Source of the DNA: Rhodospirillaceae bacterium
Lineage (GTDB): Bacteria > Pseudomonadota > Alphaproteobacteria > UBA6615
NCBI GenBank assembly: GCA_002713365.1
Contig: PASR01000003.1
Span: forward strand, 1-64,000
Direction: 5' to 3'
Length of the DNA: 64,000 nucleotides
The notes under the pieces were generated by a model. That model made no database searches. It saw only the letters and a list, made by a program, of their open reading frames with translations, and was not told where the DNA came from. The position numbers and the translations under genes are program-made. Shown piece by piece: positions 4,710 to 46,338 of the stretch; position 1 is the first letter of the stretch, and every line of letters begins with the position of its first letter.

Positions 4710-5951
4710 TTAACCATCTAAATACGCTTTCAAATGTTTACTGAGATCAAGTGCATCATCACCAGCCCCATCAATTAATGATGATTTTCGGCGACGTAAA
4801 AACTGCATTCCCATAAGATACATCCCAGGAAAATTAACTATGCCTCCTTCATGAAGGATTTGTCCTTTACGGTCTAAAACAGGTACATCCAACCATGAAA
4901 GGTCGGGTCTAAATCCCGTTGCCCATATAATGGTTTTAATATTATTTTCAGTTAAATTTATTTCTAGTGTTGGAGAATTTTCAATTAAGGTAGGTAAAAA
5001 ACGCTCTCTAGGATTAATACCAACGATATGATCGTTATTTGTTATCCACTCATCAATGTTATCAAGCAAACGATTCATTTTTAAATCCGCTAATGAGCAT
5101 ACGTTCTTAAGTGATCCCGAAAATAAGGCCTTATCATCCCGCATTCCAACCATACGCCCAACTAGTTTAACGCCTATACCAGTAAGTGTATTAAGATCAA
5201 GTGTTCCTCTATCCAAAGAACCTGTAAGCTGCAACGATGGTACACGCCTAGCTCTATTAATATCATCTACATCATCGTAACGTTCATCAAGAATGCCAGT
5301 AGAATCCATCCACCATTTTATATCATAACCTCGATAGACTCTAGGCACTCTAACATGCTCACCTACCGATAGTGTAACCTGCCGGCCCGAAAGCTGAATT
5401 TCTTTAGAAAGCTGAGTACCAGTTGCAGAAGCACCTACTATCATAACCCCTCCATCAGCCAATTGGTTGGGGTTTTTATATTGAATAGGTGTCAACATAT
5501 TTACTTTATAAGAAACTGCCTCAGCAATATTAGGCACAACAGCAATATTGCAAGCACCAGAGGCAATTACTAAAACCTTGCAACGCCATTCACCTTGATT
5601 AGTTATAATTTTGTAACCTGACTCAGATGAGGACACTGAGGTTACCCTCGTACTGGTCTCTACCGGCGCTGAAATAAAGTTAGCATATTGATCAATAAAT
5701 TTAATAACCTCCGGCATGTCTCTGAAACCGTCAGGATTCTCTCCTTGATATTTAAAACCCGGCAAACGACTTTGCCAATTCGGAGTAAGCAAGCGCAGAG
5801 AATCCCAACGTTCAGTTCTCCAGGAGTTTGCAACTTCTCCTCTTTCTAGTAACACATGATCGACCGAGAGCTCAGTAAGGCAACGACTCATAGCCAAACC
5901 AGCATGCCCAGCACCAATAATTACACAAGTTACATTTCTCGAGGTAACCAT
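4710..5951 (-). CDS. FAD-dependent NAD(P)H oxidoreductase/monooxygenase
   Basis: This 413-residue flavoprotein has an N-terminal FAD-binding Rossmann motif (IIGAGHAG, residues 11-18) followed by the LERGEVANSWRTERWDSLRLLTPN segment typical of class B-like monooxygenases. A second dinucleotide motif (VGASATGTQL, near residue 170) should bind NAD(P)H. The ATGFRPDLSW segment near residue 350 is the usual conserved ATG-containing strand. It is a soluble enzyme without a signal sequence. It follows the OsmC-family gene by about 36 bp on the same strand, so it may share that gene's riboswitch-bearing leader. The substrate is unknown. Confidence 0.8.
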   Translation of the reverse strand: MVTSRNVTCVIIGAGHAGLAMSRCLTELSVDHVLLERGEVANSWRTERWDSLRLLTPNWQSRLPGFKYQGENPDGFRDMPEVIKFIDQYANFISAPVETSTRVTSVSSSESGYKIITNQGEWRCKVLVIASGACNIAVVPNIAEAVSYKVNMLTPIQYKNPNQLADGGVMIVGASATGTQLSKEIQLSGRQVTLSVGEHVRVPRVYRGYDIKWWMDSTGILDERYDDVDDINRARRVPSLQLTGSLDRGTLDLNTLTGIGVKLVGRMVGMRDDKALFSGSLKNVCSLADLKMNRLLDNIDEWITNNDHIVGINPRERFLPTLIENSPTLEINLTENNIKTIIWATGFRPDLSWLDVPVLDRKGQILHEGGIVNFPGMYLMGMQFLRRRKSSLIDGAGDDALDLSKHLKAYLDG

Positions 5952-5987: not shown

Positions 5988-6545
5988 TTAGTTAACTTCT
6001 ACCGAAACATTAGTTGGATTTGTTACGATATCATATACAGCCGAACGTTTTTGAGATTGTGCAACAAGAGCTCTAATTTCATCAGGAGTTGCATCTGCAT
6101 CAATATCATAATGTACATTAATACCATCAAACCCATTTCGTACATCTGCATCAACACCAAGAATACCCTGTATATCCATTCCGCCCTCAATCGTGGCTTT
6201 ACAAGACCTCAACTGAATATCACGATGCTGGGCTACAGCAGCTATTCCTGCTGTCAGGCAACTTGCTAAACCGACTAAAACAATTTCTACTGGGGTAGCG
6301 CCATTATCTTCAGAAGCAAAAACTTCAGGATGATCAGCATCAAAAGAAAAAGTTTTTTTATGCACCTGCTCTGAGCCAAGCCCAAAATATCCTTCGACTG
6401 ATGTTTTGCTATGAGTGCCGTTTTTCCATTCACAACTCGCACGCCATAAAAATTTTGCTGCTTCAGGAGCTTCACTTAATGCCTCACGAGCGCCAAGCAA
6501 TGCTTCAACATTTACGCCATTATTCACTACTGTAGTTTCGGACAT
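5988..6545 (-). CDS. OsmC-family protein
   Basis: This 185-residue protein has the OsmC/Ohr fold. Substrate strands lie around WRASCEWKNGTHSKT, and the central helix carries VGLASCLTAGIA with the peroxidatic-type Cys. The C-terminal segment SQKRSAVYDIVTNPTNVSVEV lacks the second Cys of classical OsmC/Ohr, so a two-Cys peroxidase mechanism is doubtful. ATG at 6545 is chosen because GAGGA is nine bases upstream, while the in-frame ATG at 6554 abuts that motif. A SAM-II riboswitch lies about 215 bp upstream on the same strand. The FAD oxidoreductase follows directly. The role is unknown beyond organic peroxide or thiol metabolism in the family. Confidence 0.85.
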   Translation of the reverse strand: MSETTVVNNGVNVEALLGAREALSEAPEAAKFLWRASCEWKNGTHSKTSVEGYFGLGSEQVHKKTFSFDADHPEVFASEDNGATPVEIVLVGLASCLTAGIAAVAQHRDIQLRSCKATIEGGMDIQGILGVDADVRNGFDGINVHYDIDADATPDEIRALVAQSQKRSAVYDIVTNPTNVSVEVN

Positions 6546-6554
6546 AATAATCAT

Positions 6555-6708
6555 TCCTCATAATATTATAAATTTTAAAATTGGGTTTAAATTAACAAAA
6601 GCAGACGTCAGAAGAATATGCTTCGACAAGTCAACAATGACACAAAGCAGACATCCCACTGCACATCAGCGTGGAAATTCATGTTCTAATTTTTGATTAT
6701 TTTTTTTT
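6555..6708. other. Non-coding stretch between SAM-II leader and OsmC gene, with a short direct repeat
   Basis: No credible gene is seen here. The motif aaagcagac(g/a)tc occurs twice in direct orientation (about 6597-6609 and 6644-6655). A 24-codon minus-strand frame (6608-6682) starts at an ATG without a ribosome binding site and is not called. The stretch resembles, from memory only, short dispersed elements with a cccaaagcggacat core seen in some Alphaproteobacteria. That resemblance is unverified. Confidence 0.3.
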
Positions 6709-6760
6709 CATAAGCGGTCTCCAGCCCTAAATTCGGGCCCGCGGAACCACTAATCCGCGG
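6709..6760 (-). promoter_or_regulatory. Candidate expression platform downstream of SAM-II aptamer
   Basis: Immediately 3' of the aptamer on the minus strand are two hairpins: CCGCGGA/TCCGCGG (6739-6760) and GCCC/GGGC (6724-6738). A Shine-Dalgarno-like GGAG (6719-6722) and an ATG at 6711 follow. That ATG opens only Met-Lys-Lys-Lys-stop across a run of nine A. The CCGCGG block is repeated in the first strand of the aptamer stem (6807-6812), so mutually exclusive pairings are possible. Confidence 0.45.
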
Positions 6761-6815
6761 CGCTTTAGCTATTGGTAACGCGGTTGCAAGCTGCCCCATC
6801 AAATTACCGCGGGTC
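6761..6815 (-). ncRNA. SAM-II riboswitch aptamer
   Basis: This is a GC-rich island in an AT-rich intergenic region. On the minus strand the stem CGCGGT/ACCGCG encloses a loop with AATTTG and CTTGCA. It is followed by CGTTA, then AATAGCTAAAG. These match in order the conserved blocks of the SAM-II (metA-type) pseudoknot aptamer known from Alphaproteobacteria and from Sargasso Sea metX: GATTT, TTGCA, P1 3' strand and GCTAAA. The classical targets are methionine and SAM biosynthesis genes. Here the next gene on this strand encodes an OsmC-family protein. Confidence 0.8.
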
Positions 6816-6873
6816 TATAAATAAAGAGGGAAGACCAAATCCCATTAGGTATTATTACGGATCACAAAAATTA

Positions 6874-6902: not shown

Positions 6903-7019
6903 CTTCAAGTGTACACATTATTATTACTAATAAGTAATCTGTCAACGTAATTATATTTAGTTAAAACGTATAGTATATTTTTTTATTCAAATATTTTATA
7001 TTAGAACTTGGCTTCAATA

Positions 7020-7886
7020 CTAGGTTAAATCAAAACCTTTTTCATTTAAAAAATTTTTGATGTTATCGAGATCACTATTTTCGGCTAAACGTCTTGCTAC
7101 ATTTTCAGACCAGCCATAAAAAGAAGCCGTTCCATATTTGGAAGAATTAATTTGGTTACGAAGTGGTCGGGCTTCATGACGGCGACGATCATATTTATCA
7201 ATCTCTGAACTAAGATTAGAATCATCATATTTATCTTGATGCAACACAATTGAAGATGGCAGTCGTTGCGAAATATCACGCTCTTCATTAGGCCAGCCTG
7301 CTACAAACCCAGCTATAGGAAACACACCATTTGGCAAATTTAATAAATTTGCCATCTCCGTAAGCCGTTTACGCACCTGGCTAATACAACAGCACCCAAG
7401 ACCGAGAGACTCTGCCGCCAATACCATTGTTTGCATTGCTAGTGCTGCATCAATAGCCGCATTCATAAAACTATCCAAGGTGTTTTGTGCATAAGAGAGG
7501 CCCCGCATATCACACAAACGCTGTGCGCGTCTTATGTCTCCACAGAAAACAAGTAAAACTGGGGATTCGGATAGCCATGCTATGTCACATAACTTGGCCA
7601 TTTCATCCTTTTTAGCCTGATCTCGCAAATCTATAATTGAATATTGTTGTAAATCAGACTTAGCAGAAGCAGACTGAGCACAGGAAACTAAGATTGTTCT
7701 TAGTTCTTCACTAACTTCTTGATCAGTGAACCTACGATAACTTCGTCTTTGGAGAATATTAGAAATGTACCCAAGGTTTTCGTCTGTAAAATAATTTGAG
7801 CAAGCATGCAAATCAGATCCAGTTGACACCTCTAGCCCAAAACGATCGAAAATACTAACCTCAAAAATAGACTTCATATCAGACAT
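7020..7886 (-). CDS. Nitroreductase-family flavoprotein (NfsA/FRP-like)
   Basis: This protein of about 288 residues has the nitroreductase signature RRSYRRFTDQEVSEELRTIL in its first quarter. The FMN and dimer region includes FMNAAIDAALAMQTMVLAAESLGLGCCCI, followed by PIAGFVAGWP. A C-terminal extension (YDRRRHEARPL) resembles NfsA/FRP-type NADPH oxidoreductases. ATG at 7886 is chosen because AGGGG lies eight bases upstream. An in-frame TTG 21 bp earlier lacks such a site. It should be a cytoplasmic FMN enzyme reducing nitro, quinone or other acceptors with NAD(P)H. It follows two cupin genes on the same strand and may share their transcript (51-bp gap). Confidence 0.85.
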   Translation of the reverse strand: MSDMKSIFEVSIFDRFGLEVSTGSDLHACSNYFTDENLGYISNILQRRSYRRFTDQEVSEELRTILVSCAQSASAKSDLQQYSIIDLRDQAKKDEMAKLCDIAWLSESPVLLVFCGDIRRAQRLCDMRGLSYAQNTLDSFMNAAIDAALAMQTMVLAAESLGLGCCCISQVRKRLTEMANLLNLPNGVFPIAGFVAGWPNEERDISQRLPSSIVLHQDKYDDSNLSSEIDKYDRRRHEARPLRNQINSSKYGTASFYGWSENVARRLAENSDLDNIKNFLNEKGFDLT

Positions 7887-7936
7887 CCAAAACACCCCTA
7901 ACGTCAATTAATATATTTAAACCTAAACAATGAGAT

Positions 7937-45606: not shown

Positions 45607-46338
45607 ATGCTGGAGTTAATAACAAATCCTGCAGCTTGGGCCAGCTTGGCCACCCTTACTTTGCTAGAAATTATCCTAGGGGTGGACAATATCATATTCC
45701 TATCCATCGTTACCTCACGGCTTCCCAAAAAACTGCAGCCTAAAGCTCGTAGAATTGGCCTAATCATTGCACTCTTAGGGCGTATTTTGCTCCTTTTAAC
45801 ATTAAGTTGGATTATTGGGTTAACTGTTCCAATTTTCGATATAGCCAGCATAGTAATATCCTGGCGTGATATAATATTATTTGTTGGTGGAATATTTCTT
45901 ATCTACAAAGCTTCTGTTGAAATATATCAAATGGTTGCCTGCCGAGAGAATAATCAAGGAAAACCAGGTGCTGCAATGTTTGCGTATGTTTTGGCACAAA
46001 TATTTGTTTTAGATTTAGTATTTTCTCTAGACTCGGTTCTAACAGCTATAGGAGTTGCCGAACATATTGAAATTATGATTACCGCTATTGTTATTGCAAT
46101 AGGAGTAATGATGATAGCAGCCGAACCAATTAGTGCATTTGTTCAAAAACACTCTACGGTAAAAATGCTTGCACTTTCTTTTCTAGTCTTAGTTGGAATC
46201 ACATTGGTAGCTGACGCTGTTGATTTACATATACCGAGAGGTTTTTTATACCTGAGCATCGCATTTGCCACTTCTGTGGAAGTCTTAAACCTAATCGTTC
46301 GTCACCGGGCATCAAAAAAAACGGCTAAAGTGCCTTGA
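45607..46338 (+). CDS. TerC-family integral membrane protein
   Basis: This 243-residue inner-membrane protein has about seven hydrophobic helices. It carries the two acidic TerC motifs LLEIILGVDNIIFLSIV (near 20) and FVLDLVFSLDSVLTAIGVAEH (near 135). Family members are linked to manganese export and to metalation of exported enzymes, and also to tellurite resistance, but the role here is unproved. Its stop TGA overlaps the TTG start of the Nudix gene that follows. Confidence 0.9.
   Translation: MLELITNPAAWASLATLTLLEIILGVDNIIFLSIVTSRLPKKLQPKARRIGLIIALLGRILLLLTLSWIIGLTVPIFDIASIVISWRDIILFVGGIFLIYKASVEIYQMVACRENNQGKPGAAMFAYVLAQIFVLDLVFSLDSVLTAIGVAEHIEIMITAIVIAIGVMMIAAEPISAFVQKHSTVKMLALSFLVLVGITLVADAVDLHIPRGFLYLSIAFATSVEVLNLIVRHRASKKTAKVP

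Follow-up and report, generated by a model that had tools for sequence, protein, structure and literature searches.

A SAM-II riboswitch of apparent metZ-leader descent upstream of an osmC–flavoprotein gene pair in a Rhodospirillaceae bacterium

The DNA analysed here (the window) is a 64,000-nucleotide stretch from the 2.5 Mb genome of a Rhodospirillaceae bacterium (G000; all coordinates are window positions), and the SAM-II aptamer on its minus strand is, on sequence grounds, genuine. As the original prediction had it, no methionine gene comes next: the downstream genes encode an OsmC-family protein (PF02566) and then an FAD oxidoreductase, and the usual (though not defining) SAM-II trait of a leading methionine or SAM-cycle gene is missing. 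In our view, the locus is likely to represent a functional SAM-II riboswitch descended from a metZ leader, which would serve as the 5' leader of the osmC–FAD pair and lower its expression when SAM is plentiful.

Identity and conservation of the aptamer

When the window was scanned with cmscan against Rfam 15 at the gathering threshold, the sole match to reach it was a full-length one to RF00521 (SAM_alpha), which runs from 6820 to 6745 on the minus strand with an E value of 1.2e-05. Its score of 40.4 bits exceeds the family cut-off of 36 bits, and this outcome of the Infernal search proposed in the original prediction upholds the SAM-II blocks that had been read, and can be seen, in order on that strand. 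Since the runner-up score for RF00521 across G000 is 16.5 bits, SAM-II is considered to be single copy in this genome, in which a custom model (R1, built from family members with the window sequence included) also matches one place only, namely the same aptamer. Faint resemblances to SAM-II, scoring 15-16.5 bits in G000 and 17.6 bits at window position 46266, are regarded as chance. The core nucleotides AUUUG, GCUUGC and GCUAAA are invariant in 14 of 14 family sequences, the window among them, and every counted pair of the P1 stem and the pseudoknot P2 strands is formed in six leaders; these pairs show zero variation among the six, and because they never vary P1 and the pseudoknot are without covariation support. 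We infer that the window RNA binds SAM.

The features of the locus are collected in Table 1. The riboswitch transcript probably starts after the nitroreductase gene, and the probable promoter (6945-6920) lies ~100 nt upstream of the aptamer; TTGACA and TAATAT boxes with similar spacing can also be read in two congeneric species, G015 and G016, and the number of promoter-like matches across the region is not above chance.

Table 1. Features of the SAM-II–osmC locus in window coordinates
Feature	Position	Strand	Basis and remarks
Nitroreductase-family gene, upstream	7020..7907	-	PF00881; same place in G015, G016 and riboswitch-free G001
Probable promoter of the riboswitch–osmC transcript, TTGACA-17-AATAAT	6920..6945	-	11/12 consensus, best in interval
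SAM-II (SAM_alpha, RF00521) aptamer	6745..6820	-	Core 6758-6811; Rfam 40.4 bits; 52/54 core identity with G015
Expression-platform hairpin CCGCGG…CCGCGG	6739..6760	-	First two bases shared with pseudoknot strand
Second small hairpin GCCC…GGGC beside Shine-Dalgarno	6724..6738	-	Sequence reading and RNAfold platform model
Leader mini-ORF from AUG1, MKKK*	6697..6711	-	GGAG Shine-Dalgarno before it; aligned with metZ leaders
osmC, OsmC-family, single-cysteine subfamily	5988..6554 (likely start 6545)	-	PF02566, 62.7 bits versus 27.5
FAD-dependent oxidoreductase, relative of MSMEG_0569/ArsO flavoproteins	4710..5951	-	PF13738; TIGR04046 333 bits, under the cut-off of 498

Conservation in this marine genus was judged from three genomes, representing three species: that of the window, G015 and G016 (ALOHA_A2.5_4). 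The gene order nitroreductase, SAM-II, osmC, FAD oxidoreductase is common to all three, with an aptamer-to-OsmC distance of ~230 nt in G015 and G016, so that the leader–OsmC synteny which the original prediction wanted examined in related genomes is found in both of the other species examined. Of the 54 positions in the aptamer core, 52 are the same in the window and G015, whereas four-fold degenerate sites in the three flanking genes agree at 79 of 257 (31%; Fisher p 1.5e-20 for core versus four-fold sites) and the intergenic stretches that flank the leader on both sides show 46-49% identity, which is the level of shuffled sequence. In the platform hairpin, all seven pairs form in six homologous leaders (7/7, 100%), three of the seven having changed on both sides and none being broken, against 24-46% paired in sliding-partner controls for the whole structure.

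These figures bear on the choice offered in the original prediction, between a SAM-regulated sulfur pathway and a relic that has lost its gene. A functionless remnant of a deleted metZ would agree with a genus devoid of metZ and with a former start codon that opens merely a 3-4-codon ORF, but we hold it to be highly improbable, since the aptamer and platform hairpin have been kept while neutral sites and flanks are saturated, and since the hairpin shows compensating changes. Because the aptamer is strongly conserved rather than decayed, the osmC–FAD pair is likely to be under SAM control. The SAM-regulated pathway draws support from the synteny in the genus, as well as from other, independent operons in which SAM-II heads OsmC together with metZ or metY (described below).

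Descent from a metZ-type leader

The SAM-II leaders that precede metZ, metY, metA and metX in Alphaproteobacteria are like that of the window in core, P1, pseudoknot strands, platform hairpin, Shine-Dalgarno and AUG, but differ in that the window has no methionine gene, its AUG opening a 3-4-codon ORF with osmC next. In the family relatives G002 and G011, metZ is preceded by two tandem SAM-II aptamers, the downstream one being of a type (b) with a shorter loop ahead of GCUAAA. This type b leader closely resembles that of the window through the aptamer, the hairpin, GGGCCC…GG and the start codon, and the metZ start in metZ leaders occupies the position that corresponds to the mini-ORF AUG; in the window genus, the type b aptamer alone remains. 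That type b should be the downstream member of the G002 and G011 pairs fits a published arrangement, in which some tandem SAM-II pairs have a terminator-type aptamer followed by one of the ribosome-site type (PMC9481103). The best reading of these likenesses is that the window leader derives from the kind of leader that heads metZ (homocysteine synthase) in related genera. The original idea of a riboswitch that has lost its gene survives to this extent, together with the missing metZ and the old start that now opens a mini-ORF, but not as a claim of decay.

No metZ was found in the genus: the top homologs there share 36% identity, and the ones that were scanned belong to the metY or cystathionine gamma-synthase families. 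The genus does have a metX homolog; around its metX, metY and related loci, no other riboswitch reaches the cut-off. In G001, G002 and G011, the nitroreductase-to-osmC gap (~190-235 nt) is without a riboswitch, which indicates that the leader was placed upstream of osmC within the genus. SAM control is not general for the osmC–FAD pair, since relatives (G001, G002, G010 and G011) carry the pair riboswitch-free. Deletion of metZ in place is disfavoured as the whole story, given that osmC–FAD in G001, G002 and G011 has neither a riboswitch nor an adjacent metZ.

From the leader to a distant start codon

The mini-ORF AUG (6711) and its Shine-Dalgarno, which were absent from the earlier note, lie ~35 nt past the aptamer. 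The start is kept in the three species, with products of 3-4 codons (MKKK* in the window, MKK* in G015 and MKI* in G016), and the OsmC start is found 166 nt beyond it, with a Shine-Dalgarno of its own. No terminator-like site was found in the window between the aptamer or leader and OsmC, and no shared RNA structure in the mini-ORF-to-OsmC stretch of the window, G015 and G016; this stretch shows no conservation between the window and G015.

Because no terminator is seen and type b platforms put a start right after the hairpin, control of ribosome access is the likeliest mode of action. A transcript from the TTGACA promoter would run through the leader to osmC, the osmC–FAD pair would be the regulated unit, and control would be exerted via access to the leader Shine-Dalgarno, not via an intrinsic terminator. 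Coupling to OsmC would have to be indirect, since the AUG opens so short an ORF and OsmC lies well beyond it with its own Shine-Dalgarno: the leader may provide a ribosome landing site that serves the distal start, or may act through reinitiation or transcript stability, with which the sequence is equally compatible. There is a parallel in the SAM-II leader of S. meliloti metA, where the Shine-Dalgarno is needed, AUG1 is unused and translation begins 74 nt downstream (PMC9373788). The window is like it in having a riboswitch Shine-Dalgarno, an AUG1 that is not the start of the gene and a real start further downstream. The two differ in that metA has an in-frame AUG1, separated from AUG2 by 74 nt that include a terminator (PMC9373788), whereas in the window AUG1 opens a closed mini-ORF, OsmC follows at a distance of 166 nt and there is no sign of a terminator.

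S. meliloti also offers the model for a different mode, since its SAM-II leaders yield the small RNAs RZ and RA (PMC9373788): the riboswitch of the window could govern a small RNA or mini-ORF transcript that acts in trans, with OsmC transcribed from its own promoter. A weak promoter-like site does lie directly before OsmC, the mini-ORF start is, as described, kept in three species, and behind the mini-ORF of G015 and G016 there is a long hairpin, AATGACA…TGTCATT (interval z -1.3 and -3.3). We nevertheless consider this mode unlikely, for neither this hairpin nor a terminator-like site was found in the window, and the stretch behind the mini-ORF, which would be expected to be conserved in a trans-acting RNA, is unconserved between the window and G015. 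OsmC–FAD could also be controlled by transcription termination, if the stretch from mini-ORF to OsmC held a terminator that depends on Rho or has escaped recognition; intrinsic terminators close many SAM-II leaders (e.g. L004, L008 and L010), and through the mini-ORF the access of Rho could be tied to ribosome binding. Yet the window leader is without an intrinsic terminator, and where the same variant precedes metZ or osmC in relatives there is no T-tract, a Shine-Dalgarno and start lying just past the hairpin instead, which makes termination quite improbable in our judgement. Control of ribosome access by a leader that reads through to osmC is the reading we retain.

OsmC-family genes as SAM-II targets

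In a class-wide sample, metZ, metY, metA or metX lies within the fetched stretch at 75 of 77 SAM-II loci, which makes OsmC on its own an unusual target for SAM-II. Among the loci listed, at least four lineages have osmC within a SAM-II operon. The order is SAM-II, osmC, metZ in G053 (osmC 27 nt past the aptamer; metZ by TIGR01325, 555 bits), tandem SAM-II, osmC, metY in G358 (L306), where the second aptamer and its hairpin belong to the window type, and tandem SAM-II, metY, osmC in G127 (L304) and G398 (L305). The chance of four such SAM-II–osmC lineages is put at a few in ten thousand, a rough figure for which gene counts were assumed. G053 and G358 are like the window in that SAM-II stands directly upstream of an OsmC-family gene, but differ in that this OsmC is of the two-cysteine kind and is followed by a homocysteine synthase gene. 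A further case is published: the osmC gene of Ca. Pelagibacter ubique is preceded by SAM riboswitches, and sulfur limitation raises osmC mRNA 50-fold (PMC5069961). This marine alphaproteobacterium is like the window in having osmC and an oxidoreductase gene (ordL) under SAM riboswitches, but there a tandem SAM-II/SAM-V precedes bhmT, and the likeness is by description, OrdL being described merely as an oxidoreductase (PMC5069961) and the two OsmC proteins being likened by family name.

Several other arrangements were seen in passing. A HemB-like gene (named from sequence only) comes after the metY/osmC operons of G127 and G358, and a homocysteine S-methyltransferase-like gene (likewise so named) is preceded by SAM-II in L279 (G407) and L282 (G409), both from the family of G053. 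In L008 (G001:C27) and L014 (G011:C92), SAM-II (44.5 and 42.8 bits) and a terminator-like hairpin are followed by a SAM-dependent methyltransferase (Methyltransf_11, ~287 aa), a further target outside methionine synthesis. In L229 (G206:C16) and L265 (G249:C208), SAM-II (72.3 and 47.9 bits) is followed by isochorismatase-domain and RimK-like ATP-grasp genes, with no methionine genes in those positions. SAM-II-like aptamers below the cut-off (34.9 and 29.6 bits), with a terminator-like hairpin, precede a conserved ORF of 52-54 aa without known family (MAKV…AGPDDPI[FY]KGGFVISSHPVR) in L010 (G017:C7:1133-1210) and L013 (G021:C32:1303-1380).

OsmC/Ohr peroxidases require two catalytic cysteines. 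The window OsmC has the OsmC fold (PF02566) but only one of these residues: among 80 close relatives, Cys99 is present in 80/80 and the position of the second cysteine is Ser in 80/80. Because of this replacement, the protein should not be called a peroxidase, and is unlikely to be an OsmC peroxidase of the standard kind. Its closest solved relative (2opl, E 1.5e-39) is named only as a hypothetical protein. Both family cysteines are present in the OsmC proteins of G053, G358, G127 and G398, and function is not directly transferable from that of G053, since the window protein is 29% identical to it and belongs to a different, single-cysteine subfamily. An FAD oxidoreductase gene is directly downstream of single-cysteine osmC in 74 of the 74 loci with enough DNA, and the pair, which elsewhere is mostly riboswitch-free, spans many phyla, with records named from Alphaproteobacteria to Acidobacteria and Gemmatimonadota. 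Among loci outside the genus, the 80 closest that encode single-cysteine OsmC showed no SAM-II in the vicinity, and a search of viral contigs for OsmC relatives found none. What points to a sulfur link for the window OsmC is its riboswitch together with its family.

OsmC-family genes thus appear to be recurrent members of SAM-II regulons in Alphaproteobacteria, in at least four lineages beyond the published Pelagibacter. A bolder picture, possible but rather doubtful as a whole, would be that an unrelated operon, that of osmC and the flavoprotein, has captured a metZ leader, that a landing ORF of 3-4 codons controls a start 166 nt off, that OsmC belongs to the SAM regulon in general and that its single-cysteine form, together with the flavoenzyme, carries out an undescribed SAM-responsive sulfur step. 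The extent of SAM-II control at distant starts is unknown according to the S. meliloti authors (PMC9373788). The window leader could be a natural test of whether a SAM-II ribosome site can control such a start, and osmC–FAD offers a defined gene pair for testing a role in sulfur metabolism.
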